The notes under the pieces: model-generated
What the model was told of the DNA's origin: nothing
What the model saw: the letters and a program-made list of their open reading frames with translations, nothing else
Database searches by the model: none
Made by a program: the position numbers and the translations under genes
In this document: positions 7,319-53,799 of the stretch, one piece after another
How positions within the stretch are numbered: the stretch's first letter is position 1
How the letters are laid out: each line of letters starts with the position of its first letter
Assembly (NCBI GenBank): GCA_007693835.1
Contig: RECW01000130.1
Coordinates: forward strand, 1 to 56,817
Source of the DNA: Paracoccaceae bacterium
Lineage (GTDB): Bacteria; Pseudomonadota; Alphaproteobacteria; Rhodobacterales; Rhodobacteraceae
Direction of reading: 5' to 3'
DNA length: 56,817 nt

Positions 7319-8422
7319 GTGGGTTGGACGTTGTGGCGCTATGTGGCGAGGCGCTTCTTCGGCGCCGTGCTCGGCGTGGCCGCCATCGTGGCGACCATGG
7401 CGGCCCTCGGCGCGCTCGCCGAGCTTCTGCGACGCAGCGGCGGCGGCGAACCGGGCGTGCTTGTGCTGCTCGGCATGTCGCTGCTCGCCGCGCCCCAGAT
7501 CGCAATGACGGCGCTGCCCTTCATCGTGCTGCTGGCCGCGCTCGCCGCCTTCGCGCGCCTCTCCCGCGGGTCCGAGATCGTGGTGACGCGGGCGGCGGGC
7601 GTTTCGGTCTGGGCGCTCACCGCGCCCGGCGCGGCTGTCGCGGCGGCGGTGGGCGTGGCCGGCTTCGCGGCGCTCAACCCGCTCGTCGCCGCCTCGACGC
7701 TGCGCTACGAGACGCTCGAAGCCCGCCACCTTTCGGGACGCGCGAGCCTGCTGTCGGTATCCCGCGAGGGGTTGTGGCTGCGCCAGCCGGAAACCGAGGG
7801 CGGACAGACGGTCATCCGCGCCCGCGCCGCCAGCGCGGACGCGAGCGAACTGCGCGGCGTCACCTTCTTCGTCTCCGACCGCGCCGACGAGACGACAGGC
7901 CGGATAGACGCCGCTTCGGCCATGTTGCGCCCGGGCGCATGGGTTCTGTTCGACGCGATCGAGCGGCGGTTCGCCGACGAGGCGGCGACGGTCGACACGA
8001 GGCGCCACGCCCGCCTCGAACTGCCCACCGCGCTGACGAGCGCGCAGATCCTCGACAGCTTCGCCCCGCCCGAGACCATGTCGTTCTGGAGCCTTCCCGG
8101 TTTCATCGCGGCGCTCGAGGCGGCCGGGTTCTCGTCGGCGCGCCACCGCACCCATTGGCACGGGCAACTGGCGCAGCCGGTGCTGTTCGCGGCGATGGCG
8201 CTGATCGGCGCGGCCTTCGCCATGCGGCATCACCGTTTCGGCGGGCTCGGCGCGATGGCCTTCGGCGCGGTGCTGACCGGCTTCGGCTTCTACGTGATCG
8301 CCGATGTCGCCAAGGCGCTCGGGGCCTCCGGCGCGGCGCCGGCGCCGCTGGCGGCATGGGCCCCGCCGCTCGCCGCGCTCTGCGTCGCCGCCGGCCTGCT
8401 GCTTCAGCGTGAGGAGAACTAG
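7319..8422 (+). CDS. lptG: LPS export ABC transporter permease LptG
   Basis: This 367-residue YjgP/YjgQ-family permease begins with GTG (MGWTLWRYVARRFFGAV). Three N-terminal helices, a periplasmic domain with GLWLRQPE and later a LPTALTSAQILD segment, and three C-terminal helices match LptG. It is the partner of LptF, and the gene starts 4 bases after the lptF stop, so the two are cotranscribed. The outer-membrane component lptD follows after 41 bases, giving an lptF-lptG-lptD order seen in other alphaproteobacteria. Confidence 0.92.
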   Translation: MGWTLWRYVARRFFGAVLGVAAIVATMAALGALAELLRRSGGGEPGVLVLLGMSLLAAPQIAMTALPFIVLLAALAAFARLSRGSEIVVTRAAGVSVWALTAPGAAVAAAVGVAGFAALNPLVAASTLRYETLEARHLSGRASLLSVSREGLWLRQPETEGGQTVIRARAASADASELRGVTFFVSDRADETTGRIDAASAMLRPGAWVLFDAIERRFADEAATVDTRRHARLELPTALTSAQILDSFAPPETMSFWSLPGFIAALEAAGFSSARHRTHWHGQLAQPVLFAAMALIGAAFAMRHHRFGGLGAMAFGAVLTGFGFYVIADVAKALGASGAAPAPLAAWAPPLAALCVAAGLLLQREEN

Positions 8423-8463
8423 GCGATGGCGCTTCACGTTTCGCGACGCGTTCATGGGCTTCC

Positions 8464-10707
8464 GTGCTGACTCCGACTGCGATCCGCCCACCGCGCGGCC
8501 GACCGATCGCGCGCGGCGCGCCGTGGCGCGGCGTGCTCGCGGCCTGCCTCATGCTGCTGACGGCCTACGCCGCCGCGGCGCAGGACCGCGCAGGGCCGTT
8601 CGCCCTGCCCGAAGACACGCCCGTGGCTCTGGTCGCCGATCGCGTCTCGTTCGACGAGCGGGCCGGGACGGTCACCGCGAGCGGCTCGGTCGTCGTGCAC
8701 TACGGGCCCCGCAGCCTGACGGCGACGGAGATCGTCTACGACAGCGTCACGGGGCGGATCACCGCCGTCGGGCCGCTGACGCTGCGCTCGGAGGAGGGGA
8801 GCGTGATCGTCGCCGACGCGGCCGAACTCGACGCCGACCTGACGCAGGCGGTGGCTACGGGCGCGCGAGCCCTGATCGCCGACGGGGCGGGACGGCTGGC
8901 CGCGGTCGAGGGACGGCGCATCGACGGGCGCTACACCGTGCTGTCGAAGGCGGTCTATTCGTCCTGCGAGGTCTGCCCGGCCGCCCCGACGCCGCTCTGG
9001 GCCGTGCGCGCGAGGCGGGTTATCCACGACGAGGTCGAGCGGGTCGTGCACTACGAAAACGCCGTCTTCGAAGTCCTGGGAGCGCCGGTCGCATGGCTGC
9101 CGTTCTTCTCCCACCCCGACCCTACGGTGCGGCGGCGCACGGGGCTCCTGCCGCCGACTTTCCGAAACGCCTCCACCTACGGCTTCGCCGTTCAGATCCC
9201 CTATTTCATCGTGATCGACGACAGCCGCGACGCGACGCTGACGCCGTTCGTCACCTCGGACGACGGGCCTATTCTGATCGGCGAGTACCGGCAGGCCTTC
9301 AGGAGCGGCGATCTCAATTTTCTCGGCTCCGGCGGCTGGCTCGACACAGCGTCGGACGGGGGCGGCGAATGGCGTGGGTCTCTGGCCGGCGAGGGCCGCT
9401 TCGCCGTCTCGGGGGTCGGCGGCATCTCGTTCCTGCCCGGCACGGTCGCGGGGTTCGAAGGGGCGGCGGCGAGCGACAAGGGCTATCTGCGCCGCTACGG
9501 CTTCGACGACGACGACCGGCTCGAGAACCGCGCCTTCGTCGAGCGCTGGGGCGAACGGGGCTTCGAGAGCCTGTCCGCCTTCTATGTCCAGACCTTGCGC
9601 GAGGACGAGGCGCAGGGGACGATCCCCGTGGCGCTGCCCGAGTTCGCCTTGCGCCGCGAGGTTGCGGACGAGGCTTTCGGCGCCGTCGGCTTCGAGACGA
9701 ACGCGGTCTATCTGGCGCGCTCGGACGGGCGCGACGTCGGGCGGTTCTCGGCGCAGATCGACTGGGAGAACACCGTGATCCTCGACGAGGGCCTGCTCCT
9801 GCGCGGGTTCGGCCTTGCCCGCGCGGACGTCTACGACGTGGCCGACGACCCGGCGTTCACCGACAACCAGCCGACCCGCCTGTTCCCCATCGGCGGCGCC
9901 GAAGCCCGCTATCCGCTCGTCGCCGCCGGCCCGGGCTGGGATAGCGGCGCGCGCCACGTGATCGAACCGGCCGCGCAGGTGGTGTTCGCGTCGACCGGGA
10001 TCAATTCCGCCGACATTCCCAACGAGGACAGCGGGATCGTCGAATTCGACGAGACCAACCTGCTCGACATCAACCGTTTTCCGGGTTTCGACCGCGTGGA
10101 GAGCGGCTCGCGCGTCAACCTCGCCCTGCGCTACGAACGGATGGCCGACGACCCGCTGCGTCTCGACGCCATCGTGGGTCGGGTCTTCCGGCTGTCCGAC
10201 GAAGGCGCCTTCTCGGGCCGCTCCGGCCTCGCGGAAAGGCGATCCGACTACGTGTCCGCGCTGACGGTCGGCTTCGCCCCCTGGGTCGAGGCCTCCCATC
10301 GGCTGCGGCTCTCCGAAGATTTCGGCTTGAACCGCAACGAGGTCGGCGCGACGGTCGATCTCGGGCGCGCCCGCATGAACGGGCGGTACGTGTTCCTCCG
10401 CGAGGACGCGACAGCCGGGGCGCTCCGCGACCGCGAGGAGGTCGCGCTGACGGCCGAGGTCGACCTGATCCGCAACTGGACTTTCGGGGCGGCGGCGCGG
10501 CGCGACCTCGCGGAGGACGAGTGGGTGCGCGTCGGCGCGAGCCTTGGCTACGCCGACGAATGCGCCGAACTCGAATTCGGTCTCGGCCGCGACTTCACCG
10601 GGACGGCGGACGCGCCGGCGTCGACCAGCGTGAGCCTCAGGGTGCGGCTGTTCGGCGTTGCGGATGGCGGACGCCGGGGATCGGGCGTATGTGCGACCCG
10701 ACGCTGA
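8464..10707 (+). CDS. lptD: LPS assembly outer membrane protein LptD
   Basis: The 747-residue product has a signal peptide (hydrophobic core GVLAACLMLLTAYAAAAQ). An OstA/LptA-like beta-jellyroll follows (roughly residues 50-160, repeated ADRVSFDERAGTVTASGSV patterns), then a large C-terminal beta-barrel domain. The Cys pair SSCEVCPAAP near residue 165 sits where the family often has cysteines. It inserts LPS into the outer membrane. The start is GTG. The next gene, a SurA-like chaperone, assists barrel folding, so the neighbours fit one envelope operon. Confidence 0.92.
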   Translation: MLTPTAIRPPRGRPIARGAPWRGVLAACLMLLTAYAAAAQDRAGPFALPEDTPVALVADRVSFDERAGTVTASGSVVVHYGPRSLTATEIVYDSVTGRITAVGPLTLRSEEGSVIVADAAELDADLTQAVATGARALIADGAGRLAAVEGRRIDGRYTVLSKAVYSSCEVCPAAPTPLWAVRARRVIHDEVERVVHYENAVFEVLGAPVAWLPFFSHPDPTVRRRTGLLPPTFRNASTYGFAVQIPYFIVIDDSRDATLTPFVTSDDGPILIGEYRQAFRSGDLNFLGSGGWLDTASDGGGEWRGSLAGEGRFAVSGVGGISFLPGTVAGFEGAAASDKGYLRRYGFDDDDRLENRAFVERWGERGFESLSAFYVQTLREDEAQGTIPVALPEFALRREVADEAFGAVGFETNAVYLARSDGRDVGRFSAQIDWENTVILDEGLLLRGFGLARADVYDVADDPAFTDNQPTRLFPIGGAEARYPLVAAGPGWDSGARHVIEPAAQVVFASTGINSADIPNEDSGIVEFDETNLLDINRFPGFDRVESGSRVNLALRYERMADDPLRLDAIVGRVFRLSDEGAFSGRSGLAERRSDYVSALTVGFAPWVEASHRLRLSEDFGLNRNEVGATVDLGRARMNGRYVFLREDATAGALRDREEVALTAEVDLIRNWTFGAAARRDLAEDEWVRVGASLGYADECAELEFGLGRDFTGTADAPASTSVSLRVRLFGVADGGRRGSGVCATRR

Positions 10708-45730: not shown

Positions 45731-46213
45731 TCACTCGGGCAGGATGACGGCGTCGATCACGTGGATCACGCCGTTCGACGCCACGATGTCGGCGGCGACC
45801 ACGTTGGCCCCGTCCACGGTGACGCCATCGGTCGCGTCGATGTCGACGGTGGAACCCTGCACGGTCTCGGGGCTCAGCGTCTGGCCGGCGATGTCGGCGG
45901 ACATCACGGCGCCGGGCAGCACGTGGTAGGTCAGCACGGCGACGAGCTGGTCGCGGTTCTCCGGCAGCAGCAGCGTCTCGACCGTGCCCTCGGGCAGGGC
46001 GGCGAAGGCCTCGTCGGTCGGCGCGAACACGGTGAACGGGCCGTCGCCGCGCAGCGTCTCGACCAGACCGGCGGCCTCGACGGCGGCGACCAGCGTGGTG
46101 AAGTTTCCGGCCCCGATGGCGGTGTCGACGATGTCGAGCTCGGCGGCCGAGGCGGAGAAGGCGGCGGCGGACATGGCCGCGCCGACGGCGGCGGAAGCGA
46201 AGGTGCGAAGCAT
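45731..46213 (-). CDS. Secreted fasciclin (FAS1) domain protein, copy 1
   Basis: The 160-residue protein has a signal peptide ([25 protein letters not shown]) and one FAS1 domain with H1 motif [23 protein letters not shown] and H2 motif [16 protein letters not shown]1 domains act in cell adhesion or surface interactions; the bacterial role is unclear. It is paralogous to the gene at 46404-46889 on the same strand, and the core [20 protein letters not shown] is shared exactly. The ATG at 46213 gives the signal peptide; the track start 17 codons earlier was dropped. Confidence 0.9.
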
Positions 46214-46267
46214 CGCGGGCGTCCTCTCTGTTTGCGATCCAGTGCCGGATCGATGCTGCGACATTTA

Positions 46268-46403: not shown

Positions 46404-46889
46404 TCAGGAGGCGTCGAGCAGCACGCTGTCGATGACGTGGATCACGCCGTTCTCCGCCTCGATGTCGGCCGCGACCACCTGCGCCGAGCCGACGCGGACC
46501 GCGGCGCGGTCCTCGTTGTCGATCACGATGGTCTCGCCCGAGAGCGCGCCGGCGCCGAAGGCGAGCCCCTCGATCTCGGCCGAGGGCAGCGCGCCGCGCA
46601 CCACGTGCCGCCCGACCAGCGCACGCAGCTCGTCGCGGTTGGCGGGGTCGAGCAGCGACTCCACCGTCCCTTCGGGCAGGGCGGCGAAGGCCTCGTCGGT
46701 CGGCGCGAACACGGTGAAGGGACCGTCGCCGCGGAGCGTCTCGGCGAAGCCGGCGGCCTCGGCGGCGGACAGCAGCGTCTGGAAGGTTCCGGCCGCCTCG
46801 GCGGTCTCCAGGATGTCGCCGCGGGCGGCCATGGCCGCTCCGGCCGAAAGAACGCTCACGCTCAGCGCGGCGAGCAGGGTCTTCTTCAT
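46404..46889 (-). CDS. Secreted fasciclin (FAS1) domain protein, copy 2
   Basis: The 161-residue protein has a signal peptide (MKKTLLAALSVSVLSAGAAMAA) and one FAS1 domain with H1 [26 protein letters not shown] and H2 [13 protein letters not shown]. It is a diverged tandem paralogue of copy 1. The ATG at 46889 has GAGGAGG at good spacing; an ATG 5 codons upstream is possible. The two genes are separated by about 190 bases, so each may have its own promoter. Confidence 0.9.
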   Translation of the reverse strand: MKKTLLAALSVSVLSAGAAMAARGDILETAEAAGTFQTLLSAAEAAGFAETLRGDGPFTVFAPTDEAFAALPEGTVESLLDPANRDELRALVGRHVVRGALPSAEIEGLAFGAGALSGETIVIDNEDRAAVRVGSAQVVAADIEAENGVIHVIDSVLLDAS

Positions 46890-47189: not shown

Positions 47190-47675
47190 ATGCCCATCGC
47201 CGTCGGCGACACGCTTCCCGCCGCCACCTTTCGCCTGAAAACCGACGCCGGCCTCGGCGAGATGACGTCGGCCGACGCCTTCGCCGGCAAGGTCGCCGTC
47301 TTCGCCGTGCCCGGGGCCTTCACGCCGACGTGCCACAACGCCCACGTGCCGAGCTTCGTGCGCAACGTCGCCGCCCTTCAGGCCAAGGGCGTGGAGCGGA
47401 TCGTCTGCATTTCGGTCAACGATCCGTTCGTGATGGCCGCCTGGGGCGACGCGACCGGCGCCAGCGCCGCCGGTGTGATGATGCTCGCCGACGCCGACGC
47501 ATCCTTCGTCGCGGCTGTCGGGCTGGAGTTCGACGGCTCGGGCGCCGGCCTCGGCATGCGGTCCAAGCGGTGGTCGATGCTCGTCGAGAACGGCGTGGTC
47601 AAGGTGCTGAACGTAGAGGAGAGCCCGGGTCAGGCGACCTGCTCGACCGGCGACGCCCTGCTCGACCAGATCTGA
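47190..47675 (+). CDS. Peroxiredoxin, Prx5 type
   Basis: The 161-residue thiol peroxidase has the peroxidatic Cys48 in PGAFTPTCHNAHVPSF, the Prx5/type II hallmark. Later are SVNDPFVMAAWG and the conserved Arg/Trp of RSKRWSMLVENG. It reduces peroxides with glutaredoxin or thioredoxin. A further Cys (ATCSTGD near the end) may resolve. The ATG at 47190 follows GAAGAAGGA; the track start 54 codons upstream crosses the regulatory region. It converges on the TRAP permease gene with 4 bases between stops. Confidence 0.94.
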   Translation: MPIAVGDTLPAATFRLKTDAGLGEMTSADAFAGKVAVFAVPGAFTPTCHNAHVPSFVRNVAALQAKGVERIVCISVNDPFVMAAWGDATGASAAGVMMLADADASFVAAVGLEFDGSGAGLGMRSKRWSMLVENGVVKVLNVEESPGQATCSTGDALLDQI

Positions 47676-47679
47676 CCGA

Positions 47680-49779
47680 TCAGACCGGCGCGCGCGCGCG
47701 CTTTGCGAGGGCGATGCTGAGCGCCAGCATCGCGAGAACGCCGGCCGCGCCCGCACCGTTCGCGACGGGCGCGGCGGGCCACAGCGCCGCCGCGCCGGCG
47801 GCCCCGGCCGCGACGCGCAGGGGCCAGGCCAGCCGCGACTCCATCCACCCCTCCATCGAAGCCGCCAGACCGTAGACGCCGACGGCGGCGAAGGCGGTGA
47901 TGCGCAGCGCCTCGGCCCAGTCGCCCGAAAGGATCGGCGTGAAGGCGAAGAGCAGCGGCACGATGTAGAGGCCCTTCGCCAGCTTCCAGCTGGTGAAGCC
48001 CGTCGCCATCGCCGGCGCGCGCGCGATGGCCGCCGCGGTGAACGCCGCGAGGCAGACCGGCGGGGTGACGTTCGAATCCTGGCTCAACCAGAAGATGATC
48101 ATGTGCGCCGACAGGAGCGCGGCCATCGCCGTCTCCCGCGCGATGGCGGCGTCGCGGAGCGGCCGCAGCGCCTCGATCGGCAGCGACCCGATCAGCGCCC
48201 GCGCCTCCGCCGTCGGGATCGGCCCGGCCATCGCCGCGGCGGCCGCCTCGGGCGAGGCCAGCATCAGGATCGGCGCGGCGGTCTGCGGCAGGGTTCCCGT
48301 CGCGAGCATCGTCACCAGCGTCGCGTCGGAGATCATGCCTGCGAGCGCGGGGGCGGAAAGCGTCGCAAGCACGATGTAGGCCGCGGTGACCGGCAGCCCC
48401 ATGCCGAGCACCAGCGAGGCGACGGCGATCAGCGCGATGGCGACCAGCACGTTCCCGCCCGCCCACTGCGCGATCATCAGCGAGAACACGTTGCCGACGC
48501 CCGCCGTCGAGATCACGTTGACGACGACGCCGACCGCCACCAGCAGCACCGCCGTCATGATCATGTTGCGCGCGCCGAGCGCCAGCGCCTCGACCACCGC
48601 CCGCGGCCCCATCCGCCGTGCGCCGAGCCAGCTCGCCGCCACGGTCGCGCCGATGCCGATCACGGCGGCGTAGGAGGGGGTGTAGCCCGAGAGCAGCGCC
48701 CAGATCACGGCGCCGATGGGCAGGAAGAACGCGGCGCCGCCCGCCTTCATCGCGTCCCACAGCGACACCGCGACCCCCGGCATGGCGCCGAGGCCCTGCC
48801 GCTTGGCCTCGATTCGCACGAAGAAGGCCACCGACAGGAAGTAGAGCAGCGCCGGCAGCGCCGCGACGGCGACGATCCGGTCGTAGGGAATCCGCGTGTA
48901 GCTCGCCATCACGAAGGCGCCGGCCCCCATGATCGGCGGCATCACCTGACCGCCGGTGGAGGCTGCGGCCTCGACCGCGCCGGCGAACTTCGGCGGGAAG
49001 CCCGCCCGCTTCATCAGGGGGATGGTGATGACGCCGGTCGAGGCGGTGTTGGCGACCGCCGAACCCGAAATCGTGCCGGTCAGCCCCGAGGCGATCACCG
49101 CGACGAGCCCCGGCCCGCCGATCATCCGCCCCGCCACCGCCCGCGCCAGCGCGATCACGAAGTCGCCCGCGCCCGAGCGCAGCAGGAAGGCGCCGAAGAT
49201 GATGAACGGAAAGACCGTCGCGGCCGAGATGCGCGCGATCGAGCCGAACATGGCGTCGTCGCCGTAGAGGCTGCGGAACAGCACGGTCTCGGGGCTGAGT
49301 CCGGGGAAGTTGAACACGCCCCCGACGAAGCGTCCCCACCACGCCACATAGCCGAGGGCGAGGATCATCAGGACCGGAATCACCGGCCCCGCCGCGCGCC
49401 GGGCGAACTCCAGCGCGCCGACCAGCACGACGCAGCCGGCGACCCAGTCGAGCGTCGAGAGCCGCACGCCGCGGGCGTAGATCGCGCTCTCCGCCCGCGC
49501 CACGTAGAGCGCCGCGGCGGCGACCGCGAGGCCGAGCGCCAGGTCGACCCACAGCCATCCGCGCCCGCGCATTCGCCGCGAGGCGGGCGTCCAGAGCGCG
49601 CAGAGCAGCGCGAAGCCGCCGAAGTGGATGACGTTGCGCTCTATGTCGCTGACCAGCGGGGTCAGCGCCGCCGCGAGATGGAAAACCGAGAGCGCGACGG
49701 CGAGCCCCGTCGCGCCCCAGAGCCACGGCCCCGCCAGCTGGCGCTGGGCGTCGCCGCCGATCTCGTCCTCGGGCGTCAT
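47680..49779 (-). CDS. TRAP transporter fused permease (4TM/12TM)
   Basis: The 699-residue membrane protein joins the small DctQ-like part (N-terminal about 150 residues, four helices) to the large DctM-like part. The DctM part has family motifs GSGLTGTISGSAVANTASTGVITIPLMKRAGFPPKFAGAVEAAASTGGQVMPPIMGAGAF-like stretches, quoted here only in outline (GTISGSAVANTAS, STGGQVMPPIMGA, QDSNVTPPVC). It imports an organic acid with Na+ or H+ using the TAXI receptor encoded just upstream. Substrate unknown. Confidence 0.95.
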   Translation of the reverse strand: MTPEDEIGGDAQRQLAGPWLWGATGLAVALSVFHLAAALTPLVSDIERNVIHFGGFALLCALWTPASRRMRGRGWLWVDLALGLAVAAAALYVARAESAIYARGVRLSTLDWVAGCVVLVGALEFARRAAGPVIPVLMILALGYVAWWGRFVGGVFNFPGLSPETVLFRSLYGDDAMFGSIARISAATVFPFIIFGAFLLRSGAGDFVIALARAVAGRMIGGPGLVAVIASGLTGTISGSAVANTASTGVITIPLMKRAGFPPKFAGAVEAAASTGGQVMPPIMGAGAFVMASYTRIPYDRIVAVAALPALLYFLSVAFFVRIEAKRQGLGAMPGVAVSLWDAMKAGGAAFFLPIGAVIWALLSGYTPSYAAVIGIGATVAASWLGARRMGPRAVVEALALGARNMIMTAVLLVAVGVVVNVISTAGVGNVFSLMIAQWAGGNVLVAIALIAVASLVLGMGLPVTAAYIVLATLSAPALAGMISDATLVTMLATGTLPQTAAPILMLASPEAAAAAMAGPIPTAEARALIGSLPIEALRPLRDAAIARETAMAALLSAHMIIFWLSQDSNVTPPVCLAAFTAAAIARAPAMATGFTSWKLAKGLYIVPLLFAFTPILSGDWAEALRITAFAAVGVYGLAASMEGWMESRLAWPLRVAAGAAGAAALWPAAPVANGAGAAGVLAMLALSIALAKRARAPV

Positions 49780-49798
49780 GCCGCCCGCGTCGCGCCCG

Positions 49799-50812
49799 TC
49801 ACTCCGCGATCAGGCGCGCCGGCACGTCGACGCCGATCTCCTGAAAATACCGCAGCGCGCCGGGATGGAGCGGCAGCGGCAGCCCGTTCAGCGCCGTCTC
49901 CAGCGTGAATTCTTCGGTGGCCGGGTGGATGGCGCGGAGGAAGGCGAGGTTCTCGAACATCGTCCGGGTGATCTGGTAGACGTGCTCCTCCGGCACGTCG
50001 GCGTTCACCGCGAGGAAGTTCGGCTGCGCGATGGTCACGACATCGTAGTCCTGCCCCGGATAGGTCCCGGCCGGGATGTCGTAGGCCGTCCAGAGATTGA
50101 AGCCGCCGTCGGCCTCCTCGACCTGCTCGGGCGAGAAGGTCAGCAGGCGCACCCGGTCGGACGCGGCGGCGAACAGCTGCGTCAGCGCGCCCACCGGCAC
50201 GCCGGCCGGCGTGGAGATCCCCGCGACCTGGCCGTTCTGCAGCGCCTCCGCCGCCGGCCCGTAGCCGCCGTAGACCAGCGTGAAGTCCTCGTCGATGTTC
50301 ACGCCGAGATTGCCGAGGATGATGCGGTTCGAGCCGATGGTGCCCGAGTTCTGCGCGCCGAGCGCCGCGCTGCGGCCCTTGATGCCGACGAAATCCGCGA
50401 TGGTGCCGGTCTCGGCGTGGTCGGCGCCGACGACGAAATGCTCGACGTTCGGCCAGAGCCCCGCCACCGAGCGCAGGTTCTCCTGCGGTCCGTCCGCCTC
50501 GACTGGCCCGACGCCCTCGGCGGCGAAATAGCCGAACAGGCCCTGCAGGATCGAGAACTGCGCCTCGCCCTCGCGCATCAGCCGGATGTTCTCGCCCGAT
50601 CCGGCGGACGAGATCGCCGACATGCCGATGCCTTCCGAGGGCTCGAGCCGCACCTTGGTCAGCGTCGCGATGGCGACGCCGACAGGGTAGTAGGTGCCGC
50701 CGGTGGAGGCGGTGGCGAGGATGTAGTTCGCGCTCTGCGCGCCTGCGCCCGATGCCGAGACGACGGCGGCGAGAGCGGCGCCGGCGATGGCGGCGCGACG
50801 TGTCATGGACAT
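49799..50812 (-). CDS. TAXI-family TRAP solute receptor
   Basis: The 337-residue periplasmic protein has a signal peptide (TRRAAIAGAALAAVVSASGAGAQ). The TAXI N terminus YILATASTGGTYYPVGVAIATL follows, then SAGSGENIRLMREGEAQFSILQ and GAQNSGTIGSNRIILGNLGV. TAXI receptors work with fused permeases like the one encoded 19 bases downstream. Known relatives bind glutamate or other carboxylates; the ligand is unknown here. The double Arg in the leader may allow Tat export. The gene starts about 95 bases after the DUF5368 gene ends. Confidence 0.94.
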   Translation of the reverse strand: MSMTRRAAIAGAALAAVVSASGAGAQSANYILATASTGGTYYPVGVAIATLTKVRLEPSEGIGMSAISSAGSGENIRLMREGEAQFSILQGLFGYFAAEGVGPVEADGPQENLRSVAGLWPNVEHFVVGADHAETGTIADFVGIKGRSAALGAQNSGTIGSNRIILGNLGVNIDEDFTLVYGGYGPAAEALQNGQVAGISTPAGVPVGALTQLFAAASDRVRLLTFSPEQVEEADGGFNLWTAYDIPAGTYPGQDYDVVTIAQPNFLAVNADVPEEHVYQITRTMFENLAFLRAIHPATEEFTLETALNGLPLPLHPGALRYFQEIGVDVPARLIAE

Positions 50813-50907: not shown

Positions 50908-51270
50908 TCAGGCTTCCTCGGACTTGCCAGGATACAGCAGGCCGAGCGCCACGTAGGAGATCACCACCGCGCCGCCGGCGCCGAGCACGAAGACGCCTGC
51001 CAGCACCAGCCAGTCGATGGGCCCGCCGAACGCCGAGGTCGGCGTCGAGCTGGTGAAGTACTTGGTGAAGGCGACCGCCGCGACGCCGCCGAGCGGGGCC
51101 AGCAGCTCCGCCTTGACGAAGCGGCTGGTGCGCAGGCCCCGGTCGCGGATCAGCACGACGAGGAACGCCGCCGCGCCGACAACCGACACGATCACGATCG
51201 CCCACCACCAGAACAGGCCGAACATCTCCTGAAACACCGCGACCAGCATCCCGAGCGTGAGATCTTTCAT
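50908..51270 (-). CDS. DUF5368-type membrane protein
   Basis: The 120-residue protein has three membrane helices (about 15-42, 52-70 with a break, and 85-110). The opening MKDLTLGMLVAVFQEMFG is what I recall for DUF5368 proteins of Rhodobacterales. It starts 12 bases after the sulfide:quinone oxidoreductase gene, so both are one transcript. It might anchor the exported flavoprotein or pass quinone electrons, which is inference from position only. Confidence 0.75.
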   Translation of the reverse strand: MKDLTLGMLVAVFQEMFGLFWWWAIVIVSVVGAAAFLVVLIRDRGLRTSRFVKAELLAPLGGVAAVAFTKYFTSSTPTSAFGGPIDWLVLAGVFVLGAGGAVVISYVALGLLYPGKSEEA

Positions 51271-51282
51271 GGCGTCGTCTCC

Positions 51283-52659
51283 TCAGGCCTGACCGCGGAT
51301 CATGGCGAAGTAGGTCGGCTTCAGCGCCACCTTCTTCATCAGCCACGAGATCCAGAGCTCCTCCAGCGGCGCCACGACGCCGGGGAAGGAGGGAACGAGG
51401 TTGTCGTCGTAGTCGAACTCGATCAGCATCGCCCGGCCGATCCGCGTGATCAGCGGGCAGGAGGTGTAGCCGTTGTAGCTTTCGAGCGACTCGCGCCCGG
51501 CGATGTCGGCCACCAGATGATCGACCGCCACGGGCACCTGCCACTTGACGCTGGCCGCGGTCTTGCCCTTCGGCACGCCGGCCACGTCGCCGACCGCGAA
51601 GACCTCCGGATAGCGCAGGTGGCGCATGGTGTGGCGGTCGACCTCGACCCAGCCGTCGTTGGCCCAAGGCCCCTCCCGCCACGGCAGCGGGCTGTTGCGC
51701 ACGGGCTCCGGCGCGCGCATCGGCGGGATGACGTTGATGAAATCGTAGTCGCATTCCGCCGTGCCGTCGGGCGTGGTGAAGAAGGCGAGCTTCTTCACCG
51801 GATCGATGCCTTTCAGCACGTGGCTGCGGTGCACCTCGACGCCCTTGCGGTCGAACAGCATCCGCAGCTTCTCGTTGACGATCGGCACGCTGAACAGCGC
51901 GTTCGCATGGGCGAAATACTTGATCTCCGACTGCTCCCGCGTGCCGTTGGTGCGCAGGATGTCGTCGACGATCATGGTGTATTTCAGCGGCGCGCCGGCG
52001 CACTTCATCTCGGTGGCTGGTCGGCCGAACACGCCGACGCCGCCGCGCTCGGCGAAGCGCATCATCTCGGCGGCGGTGGCCGCCGCCTCCTCGGGGCCGG
52101 CGTAGACCGCGCCGACGCCGTCGCGGCCGATCAGGCGGCGCTCGAAGCCCTCGACCGCGTCGAAGTCGAGGGTCAGGCCCGCGGCCACGATGAGGAAGTC
52201 GTAAGGCACGCTTCTGCCGGAGGCGGTGACGACCTTGCGCCCGTCAGGGTCGATCTCGGCCGCGGCCTCCTCGATCCACGCGACGCCGTCGGGGACCCAC
52301 TCGGCGGTCGACGACAGCACGTAGTCGGCCGGCTGCAACCCGGCGGCGACCAGCGTGAAGCCCGGCTGGTAGTAGTGGCGCTTGCGCGGATCGATCAGCG
52401 TGATCTCGGCGCCGACGACCTCGCGCTTCAGCCGCGCCGCGCAGGAGAGGCCGGCGGCGCCGGCGCCGACGATCACGATGCGCGCCCGCGACGCGACCGG
52501 AGACACCGCCCGCGCCGCCGGCGGAGCGGCGAGGAAAAGGCTCAGCGCCGCGGCGCCCGCAAGCATGTCGCGGCGGGTGAGGCCGCGGCTTTCCAGCATC
52601 CGAATCACCGCGGAGTCGGCGGCGAACGGGGAGAACGTCCGTCCCGTCATGCGTTTCAT
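51283..52659 (-). CDS. sqr: Sulfide:quinone oxidoreductase, type II-like, with Tat leader
   Basis: The 458-residue flavoprotein has a twin-arginine-like leader (SRGLTRRDMLAGAAALSLFLAAPPAARA, about residues 25-51), then FAD motif IVIVGAGAAGLSCAARL and RHYYQPGFTLVAAGL. The two redox cysteines of type II SQR are Cys220 in MKCAGAPLK and Cys401 in NGYTSCPLITR, as in human SQOR. The enzyme oxidises sulfide to sulfane sulfur and reduces quinone. A Tat leader implies periplasmic location, unusual for this type. It is preceded by the Rrf2 gene and followed by DUF5368. Confidence 0.88.
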   Translation of the reverse strand: MKRMTGRTFSPFAADSAVIRMLESRGLTRRDMLAGAAALSLFLAAPPAARAVSPVASRARIVIVGAGAAGLSCAARLKREVVGAEITLIDPRKRHYYQPGFTLVAAGLQPADYVLSSTAEWVPDGVAWIEEAAAEIDPDGRKVVTASGRSVPYDFLIVAAGLTLDFDAVEGFERRLIGRDGVGAVYAGPEEAAATAAEMMRFAERGGVGVFGRPATEMKCAGAPLKYTMIVDDILRTNGTREQSEIKYFAHANALFSVPIVNEKLRMLFDRKGVEVHRSHVLKGIDPVKKLAFFTTPDGTAECDYDFINVIPPMRAPEPVRNSPLPWREGPWANDGWVEVDRHTMRHLRYPEVFAVGDVAGVPKGKTAASVKWQVPVAVDHLVADIAGRESLESYNGYTSCPLITRIGRAMLIEFDYDDNLVPSFPGVVAPLEELWISWLMKKVALKPTYFAMIRGQA

Positions 52660-52680
52660 CCCTTGGTCTGCAATTTGTTT

Positions 52681-53157
52681 CTACTGATACTCACTGTATA
52701 ATAATTCCGTCGCGTCACCCTGCGACCCAAGGCCCAACAAACTGCGCAAATCGTCGCTGTCCGTCGTCAGGTCGGCAAGCGAATGCCGGTCAAGTTCGGC
52801 GAAGAACGCCTCCAGCGCGGCGACGAACGCGCGGCGCAGGCGGCACGCCGGGGCGAGGACGCAGGTGTTGGGCTCCGGCCCGAGGCATTCGGTAAGGCCG
52901 ACTCCCGTCTCCATGGCGCGCAGCACAGCGCCCACCGTGATCGCCTCCGGCGGCTGCGCGAGCCGAACGCCGCCCCGCCGTCCCCGCGTCGTTTCGATGA
53001 AGCCGGCCGCGGCGAGGGCATGCGCGATCTTCGCAAGATGCGTTTCGGACATCCCGCAGGTTTCGGCGATGTGGGCCACCGTCACGAGACGCTCCGGGTG
53101 GAGCGCGCAGAACATGAGCAGCCGCATCGCGTGATCGGAACGGACCGTGAGGTGCAT
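52681..53157 (-). CDS. Rrf2-family regulator, NsrR-like
   Basis: The 158-residue DNA-binding protein has the Rrf2 winged helix (MHLTVRSDHAMRLLMF, HIAETCGMSETHLAKIAHAL, TRGRRGGVRLA). Three cluster cysteines follow: Cys91, Cys99 and Cys105 in ECLGPEPNTCVLAPACRL. The spacing resembles NsrR (91, 96, 102 in E. coli), which senses NO with an Fe-S cluster; the pattern could also sense sulfur or redox state. It is first in the operon with sqr, and divergent from the DsrE-like gene, so it probably controls both. SD GGGAGG precedes the ATG. Confidence 0.9.
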   Translation of the reverse strand: MHLTVRSDHAMRLLMFCALHPERLVTVAHIAETCGMSETHLAKIAHALAAAGFIETTRGRRGGVRLAQPPEAITVGAVLRAMETGVGLTECLGPEPNTCVLAPACRLRRAFVAALEAFFAELDRHSLADLTTDSDDLRSLLGLGSQGDATELLYSEYQ

Positions 53158-53220
53158 GGCGAGCCTCCCGCATTAGCGCCCTCGACAAGTCGAATTTTAG
53201 TCCTTTTGCGAAACTGTGAC

Positions 53221-53249
53221 TTGACGCCGATCATGTCAGCCGGAATATT
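53221..53249 (+). promoter_or_regulatory. Promoter of the DsrE-like gene with overlapping palindrome
   Basis: TTGACG (53221-53226), 17 bases, AATATT (53244-53249) form a good sigma70 promoter. A perfect palindrome GGAATATTCC (53242-53251) covers the -10 box and is a natural repressor site, most simply for the Rrf2 protein encoded divergently. The 5' leader to the ATG at 53368 is about 110 bases. Confidence 0.6.
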
Positions 53250-53367
53250 CCCCATCGGAAAAACGTGAAATTGTCGCAGGATGAGATCGAGGGCGCACCT
53301 TTCGCCGCACCCGCCTGAAGCAGGCGCCTTCTCTCGCCGCCCCGGCCGACCCAAGCAGGAGACATCC

Positions 53368-53799
53368 ATGCGCATGCTGATCGCCGCCCTCGCCGTCACG
53401 CTTCCGTTCGCCGCCGCCGCGGAGGAGGCGCCGTCGGAGAAGCTCGTGACCGTCGTCGCCACGGCCGAGCCCCAGACGCAGCTGATGGCGATGGTGCTGA
53501 CCATGGCTGCGGTTCAGCAGGGGGCCGAGGCGCACATCCTGCTGTGCGGCCCCGGCGCCGACATCGCCCTGATCGACGCCCCCGACAGCGCGACCGCGCC
53601 GCAGGCGCCCCGCGGGATGAGCCCGCAAAGCCTGATGATGGCGATCATGGAGACCGGCGTTCCGGTCGAGGTCTGCGCCATCTATCTGCCCAACCTCGGC
53701 GCCGGGCCGGAGGTGCTGATCGACGGAGTCGCCGTCGCCCAACCGCCGGCGATGGCCGCGAAGATCATGGCCGAAGGCGTCCGCGTCCTCAGCTTCTGA
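53368..53799 (+). CDS. Secreted DsrE-like sulfur-carrier-type protein
   Basis: The 143-residue protein has a signal peptide (MRMLIAALAVTLPFAAAAEE) and a DsrE/DsrF-like fold. LVTVVATAEPQTQLMAMVLTMAAVQQGAEAHILLCGPGA gives the first Rossmann half with Cys60, followed by GVPVEVCAIYLPN with Cys103 at the position of the usual active Cys, and ending MAEGVRVLSF. DsrE proteins carry persulfide sulfur. Export and divergence from the Rrf2-sqr operon suggest a periplasmic sulfane sulfur acceptor. The ATG at 53368 follows CAGGAG; the track start 29 codons upstream would bury the signal peptide. Confidence 0.85.
   Translation: MRMLIAALAVTLPFAAAAEEAPSEKLVTVVATAEPQTQLMAMVLTMAAVQQGAEAHILLCGPGADIALIDAPDSATAPQAPRGMSPQSLMMAIMETGVPVEVCAIYLPNLGAGPEVLIDGVAVAQPPAMAAKIMAEGVRVLSF

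Follow-up and report, generated by a model that had tools for sequence, protein, structure and literature searches.

The locus at positions 50908-53799 of contig RECW01000130.1 (Paracoccaceae bacterium, assembly GCA_007693835.1) raises the question of where its sulfide:quinone oxidoreductase (SQR) acts, and with which of its neighbors. The window analyzed here is the whole 56,817-nucleotide (nt) stretch of this contig. A preliminary description, made from the window alone, had proposed that four genes, coding for an NsrR-like regulator of the Rrf2 family, the SQR, a small membrane protein of the DUF5368 family and a divergently transcribed secreted DsrE-like protein, form one periplasmic sulfide-oxidation unit. 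Our analysis partly supports this proposal, which was right on export and on DUF5368 and too strong on DsrE, on Rrf2 and on NsrR. The SQR is likely exported by the twin-arginine translocation (Tat) route, with DUF5368 as its anchor on the periplasmic face and the quinone pool as its electron acceptor, and the gene unit probably enables the cell to oxidize hydrogen sulfide at the outer side of its inner membrane. The DsrE and Rrf2 genes are optional companions of the SQR-DUF5368 pair. In the list of open reading frames the genes lie where the preliminary description had placed them, and those on the minus strand are transcribed in the order Rrf2 regulator, SQR, DUF5368:

50908-51270, minus strand: DUF5368 protein (PF17336), 120 amino acids, with an N-terminal helix and three transmembrane (TM) helices
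51283-52659, minus strand: type II-like SQR, 458 amino acids, with a Tat-type leader, Cys220 and Cys401
52681-53157, minus strand: Rrf2-family regulator (PF02082), with C91-X7-C99-X5-C105, a RirA/NsrR-like set of Fe-S ligands
53368-53799, plus strand: secreted DsrE-like protein, 143 amino acids, with a signal-peptide-like N-terminus, Cys60 (LLCGP) and Cys103 (VEVCAIYLP)

The gaps between Rrf2 and SQR (21 nt) and between SQR and DUF5368 (12 nt) are compatible with a single operon, and the DsrE-like gene diverges from this run across an intergenic region of 210 nt.

The window SQR has a flavoprotein fold (Pfam Pyr_redox_2, 60.6 bits). Its closest solved proteins are entries of the human mitochondrial SQR (210 bits, residues 60-452), with the flavin subunits of flavocytochrome c scoring far lower. 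Cysteines are found at positions 73, 220, 303 and 401. Cys220 and Cys401 align with the redox pair of the human enzyme (KCAGAP and TSCPL), which we take to be Cys201 and Cys379, and the flavin adenine dinucleotide (FAD) motifs are common to both proteins. For the comparison with relatives, loci were taken as about 14 kb of DNA around DUF5368 matches, plus four loci from a single-sequence scan of genome contigs. In the alignment of the SQRs of this clade, both redox cysteines are kept in 79/79, while Cys73 and Cys303 are unconserved and were ruled out as extra redox residues. By its fold and its redox cysteine pair the window protein is a type II-like SQR, as first described, and its enzyme activity is predicted.

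The leader of this SQR, LTRRDMLAGAAALSLFLAAPPAARA, contains a twin arginine (LTRRDML, residues 29-30), a hydrophobic stretch and an A-x-A before the mature domain. The twin arginine was kept in 78 of the 79 leaders, and the window genome encodes TatC (249 bits). Motif reading, rather than a trained predictor, thus supports Tat-type export and upholds the leader noticed earlier. The other type II SQRs inspected are without a Tat-type leader, and several of them carry an extra N-terminal domain that has a CRTGTRS-type motif. A literature search by title and abstract, with most subscription papers outside its coverage, returned neither a Tat-leadered SQR of this kind nor a paper naming DUF5368. 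Since a detoxifying role is common among SQRs and an RR motif alone is no proof of Tat export, the locus could also be read as encoding a conventional SQR for detoxification, its leader being a mere N-terminal membrane anchor and DUF5368 a co-inherited neighbor without functional link. We consider this very improbable in view of how DUF5368 is distributed.

The DUF5368 protein matches PF17336 with 106.3 bits (cut-off 25) over residues 1-112 of 120. A gene for an SQR of the window's kind was found directly upstream in 78 of the 79 DUF5368 loci, usually at a distance of 9-36 nt and with a few gaps of 56-422 nt; several gaps above 1300 nt are artefacts of a simple gene caller, by which the SQR gene was broken up or put in the wrong place. 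A tree was built from 98 SQRs (quick search, LG+G4). In it, a clade of 82 rows to which the window SQR belongs, hereafter clade A, is set apart from the 16 other type II SQRs by a Shimodaira-Hasegawa-like approximate likelihood ratio test (SH-aLRT) value of 100. In a sample of 289 alphaproteobacterial genomes, all 14 clade A SQRs had a DUF5368-like protein downstream, recognized by Pfam in 11 cases and as a divergent member by profile in three (E 2e-13 to 1.5e-10), whereas a profile search gave a DUF5368 match at 0/16 other type II SQR loci of the same class sample. Similarly, none of the 26 genomes having only the other kind of SQR was among the DUF5368 matches. The pairing is also present outside the class Alphaproteobacteria (genome G763, locus L157). 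A co-inherited neighbor without functional link does not readily fit a pairing of 14/14 against 0/16 that recurs in another class. Moreover, DUF5368 stays while the linkages of the optional companions change 9-16 times each on the SQR tree, indicating that these were repeatedly assembled or lost. With co-occurrence near obligatory, the proposal that DUF5368 is the membrane partner of the SQR is borne out. A multi-TM protein of about 400 amino acids adjoins SQR-DUF5368 in five loci (among them L053, L056, L110 and L049); the member scanned, in L110, had no Pfam match.

To our knowledge, no function has been described for the DUF5368 family. The AlphaFold2 model of the window protein has a mean predicted local distance difference test (pLDDT) score of 90.4 and consists of an N-terminal helix and three TM helices (helices at 6-17, 19-42, 48-56, 58-73 and 84-112). 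No significant structural match was found for it in the PDB with Foldseek, and a relationship to aquaporins (profile E about 0.06, no Foldseek match) was taken as chance. In the alignment of 76 family members, E15, G18, T73 and D86 are invariant. The mean net charge is -2.6 for the N-terminus, +2.9 for loop 1, -1.4 for loop 2 and +1.5 for the C-terminus, a pattern that predicts an outside location for the N-terminus and loop 2 and an inside one for loop 1 and the C-terminus. With this N-out/C-in topology, the invariant E15, T73 and D86, as well as a GGP motif, are predicted to face the periplasm, where the SQR should be. Other SQRs contact the membrane through their C-terminal region. Clade A SQRs stop 56-57 residues past the second redox cysteine, against 68-91 for the other SQRs measured, and the short C-terminus of the window SQR ends in MIRGQA. 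The short tail and the constant membrane partner together suggest that DUF5368 took over the anchoring. The window DUF5368 protein is without cysteine and therefore has no c-type heme motif.

DUF5368 could also be a helper and not a subunit, either assisting the Tat-exported SQR in its export or assembly or acting as a membrane factor that links the SQR to quinol oxidation. The constant downstream position suits either role equally, and one DUF5368 gene lies in a cydDC-cydAB operon with no adjacent SQR. However, the invariant polar residues on the predicted periplasmic side and the missing SQR tail in the DUF5368-bearing clade, although not decisive, favor a structural partner, and we hold a helper role to be quite unlikely.

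With DUF5368 as anchoring subunit, the exported SQR, bound to it, would oxidize periplasmic H2S at Cys220/Cys401 via FAD. The three-TM protein would most likely anchor the SQR and help pass electrons to membrane ubiquinone, the two forming a two-subunit membrane sulfide:quinone reductase. The quinol would be re-oxidized by cytochrome bd in relatives encoding it alongside and by other quinol-oxidizing branches in the window genome. The sulfane sulfur would remain outside the cytoplasm, where the secreted DsrE-like protein, optional across the group, is a candidate carrier. In the window, transcription would be tied to the local Rrf2 Fe-S regulator, and many relatives would rely on FNR/Crp-type boxes. 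Within this scheme, the sequences themselves show what the genes are, the leader and cysteines, the pairing and co-occurrence, and the boxes; the SQR-DUF5368 complex, its topology in the cell, the sulfur hand-over and the signal sensed are the parts that we infer.

Several observations weigh against parts of the scheme. In genome G495 (locus L098, 649-8389), the only exception seen among the 79 loci, DUF5368 is part of a cydDC-cydAB-DUF5368-SLAC1 run without an adjacent SQR, an arrangement in which DUF5368 may have another partner; the clade A SQR of this genome is encoded on a different contig. The window DsrE-like protein falls below the Pfam DsrE cut-off (PF02635, 18.5 vs 22.7 bits), and its model is of low confidence (pLDDT 58.6). 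A Foldseek search of the PDB with this model gave no match at E<=0.001, the DsrE entry 3pnx ranking 14th with E 0.84, and the hhalign scores against E. coli TusD/TusC were not significant, an unrelated control protein scoring in the same range. The window genome (95.9% complete) is without cytochrome bd, as judged from the lack of a PF01654 match, and its only SoxZ match (L182, G000:C56, about 8405-9217) lies among pqqB/C/D/E-like genes. As a separate observation, the G495 run is a possible hint of a relation between DUF5368 and the bd oxidase.

The DsrE-like assignment is a weak one. Only two of the 19 members linked to SQR-DUF5368 reach even E 0.01 against Pfam DsrE, and 13/19 match TIGR04044 (best E 1.9e-8), with the window member below the cut-off (25.3 vs 109.85 bits). 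All 19 carry a leader and both cysteines. A role as periplasmic sulfur acceptor is plausible. The start of the window gene is most likely at 53368, not 53281. Taken strictly, the preliminary description would make Rrf2, SQR, DUF5368 and DsrE one dedicated unit with DsrE as the obligatory periplasmic acceptor of the sulfane sulfur from SQR. Such a unit would explain the adjacency of all four genes in the window, the leader and cysteines shared by the linked DsrE proteins, and the enrichment of the DsrE family, which was detected in 36 of 67 DUF5368+ genomes and in 3 of 67 DUF5368- genomes of the same family (Fisher p about 1e-10, ignoring kinship, the DUF5368- set being the first 67 genomes in the list and not a random draw). 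We nevertheless find it rather unlikely, because dsrE is linked to SQR-DUF5368 in only 19/79 loci and Rrf2 in only 13/79, which rules out conserved four-gene synteny for both, and because the other 31 DUF5368+ genomes are without a DsrE of the window's family. In addition, dsrE tracks the linkage of cydA more closely, being present in 16 of the 19 loci with cydA and in 3 of the 60 without it; on independent pairs, with starred branches only, the link has the same direction and marginal significance (median p 0.06). Finally, DsrE family members are found without an adjacent SQR in L166 and L168, behind a second bd-type oxidase operon and beside a divergent Rrf2 gene. What stands of the four-gene unit is the constant SQR-DUF5368 pair and the genome-wide enrichment of DsrE. 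Another unlinked DsrE gene, in L181, lies beside genes for a SulP transporter and for a secreted protein that is rhodanese-like.

The Rrf2 regulator passes the superfamily cut-offs (PF02082, 112.6 vs 30 bits; TIGR00738, 95.1 vs 73.3 bits). Against the NCBIfam equivalogs, RirA is the best match yet below its cut-off (126.2 vs 193 bits), and NsrR scores lower (102.6 vs 182 bits). With both cut-offs missed, the NsrR identity was ruled out, and the label NsrR-like given to this protein is not supported. The C-X7-C-X5-C spacing is presumably that of RirA rather than of NsrR. The cysteines are compatible with an Fe-S protein of the Rrf2 family. In 11 of the 12 other loci with Rrf2, the gene is divergent from SQR, the co-directional order of the window being the exception. 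FNR-type boxes of the form TTGAY-N4-RTCAA were found upstream of SQR in 33/79 loci, against 0.015 expected from mononucleotide shuffles that do not preserve dinucleotides. Two candidate sites were also read in the window:

53221-53234, no strand assigned: one-mismatch copy of the FNR/Crp-type box, TTGACGCCGATCAT, between the Rrf2 and DsrE-like genes
53242-53251, no strand assigned: perfect 10-bp palindrome, GGAATATTCC, a possible but unproven regulator site

The FNR/Crp-type boxes and the Rrf2 regulator suggest that the unit serves when oxygen is low or when the cell is exposed to sulfide.

Cytochrome bd genes (cydAB) are located upstream of SQR in 19-20 of the 79 loci, and a SLAC1/TDT-family permease (PF03595, 175 bits) is present in 23. 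The preliminary description was based on one genome only, so three features of the relatives (cytochrome bd, the SLAC1 permease, the FNR-type boxes) were out of its view. In E. coli, the bd oxidase is known to shield respiration from sulfide (Korshunov 2016, in the reference list of PMC9774590). The recurrent cytochrome bd link and the FNR-type boxes suggest a sulfide-tolerant, low-oxygen respiratory route. Tentatively, and as a possibility at somewhat less than even strength, DUF5368 may be the membrane subunit of an unrecognized class of two-subunit, periplasm-facing sulfide:quinone reductase that a shared operon links to cytochrome bd in many relatives, the whole being a respiratory module tolerant of sulfide and equipped with a secreted sulfur carrier of its own. 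A role of cytochrome bd as electron sink concerns the relatives and not the window genome, for which it was ruled out as a partner. Similarly, a Sox system as sulfur sink is unsupported in this genome, the SoxZ match in its pyrroloquinoline quinone (PQQ) gene cluster looking like a SoxYZ-like carrier associated with a PQQ dehydrogenase. Nine rhodanese matches were detected in the window genome, none of them within the fetched neighborhood.

On the flanks of the four-gene locus, hemB lies on one side. On the other, 95 nt downstream of DUF5368 and on the same strand, is a TAXI-type TRAP transporter (fused permease and solute-binding protein, 47680-50812, minus strand). Its inclusion in the SQR unit is unsupported; both genes were near a match only in L162, where the TAXI-TRAP pair adjoins an unlinked DsrE, and the pair is not a neighbor in other SQR loci. 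The same flank encodes two tandem secreted fasciclin-domain proteins (45734-46216 and 46404-46889, minus strand, 132 and 111 bits) and a redoxin-family peroxiredoxin (47190-47675, plus strand, 103 bits) whose start is uncertain.

The constant pairing with SQR is a first functional handle on DUF5368 and offers a testable role for this membrane family. Among known systems, DsrE/TusD sulfur carriers are linked to the window protein by a weak profile match (18.5 bits) and by a cysteine that a non-significant alignment places much as in TusD, but the window protein is secreted and below the Pfam cut-off. Flavocytochrome c sulfide dehydrogenase (FccB flavin subunit) is, as predicted for the window SQR, an exported FAD sulfide-oxidizing enzyme with a small partner gene, and the two flavoproteins are homologous (57-82 bits); it passes electrons to cytochrome c via a heme partner, whereas the partner in the window is a three-TM protein without cysteine. 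The human mitochondrial enzyme SQOR and the type II SQRs of bacteria share the redox cysteine pair and the FAD motifs with the window SQR, which differs from them in its Tat-type leader, its lack of a C-terminal tail and its DUF5368 partner gene. In our sample, the remaining type II SQRs of Alphaproteobacteria have neither leader nor DUF5368, several having an extra N-terminal domain instead. The SQR of Rhodobacter capsulatus is presumably of a different type, without a cleavable Tat leader. The membrane side on which SQRs act has often been argued indirectly: the cable-bacteria SQR, for instance, was reassigned to the cytoplasmic side on the ground that a signal peptide is absent (PMC13047784). 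SQR activity facing the periplasm is already known from R. capsulatus (PMC9774590). Compared with the R. capsulatus enzyme, clade A carries an explicit export signal in its leader and a dedicated membrane partner.

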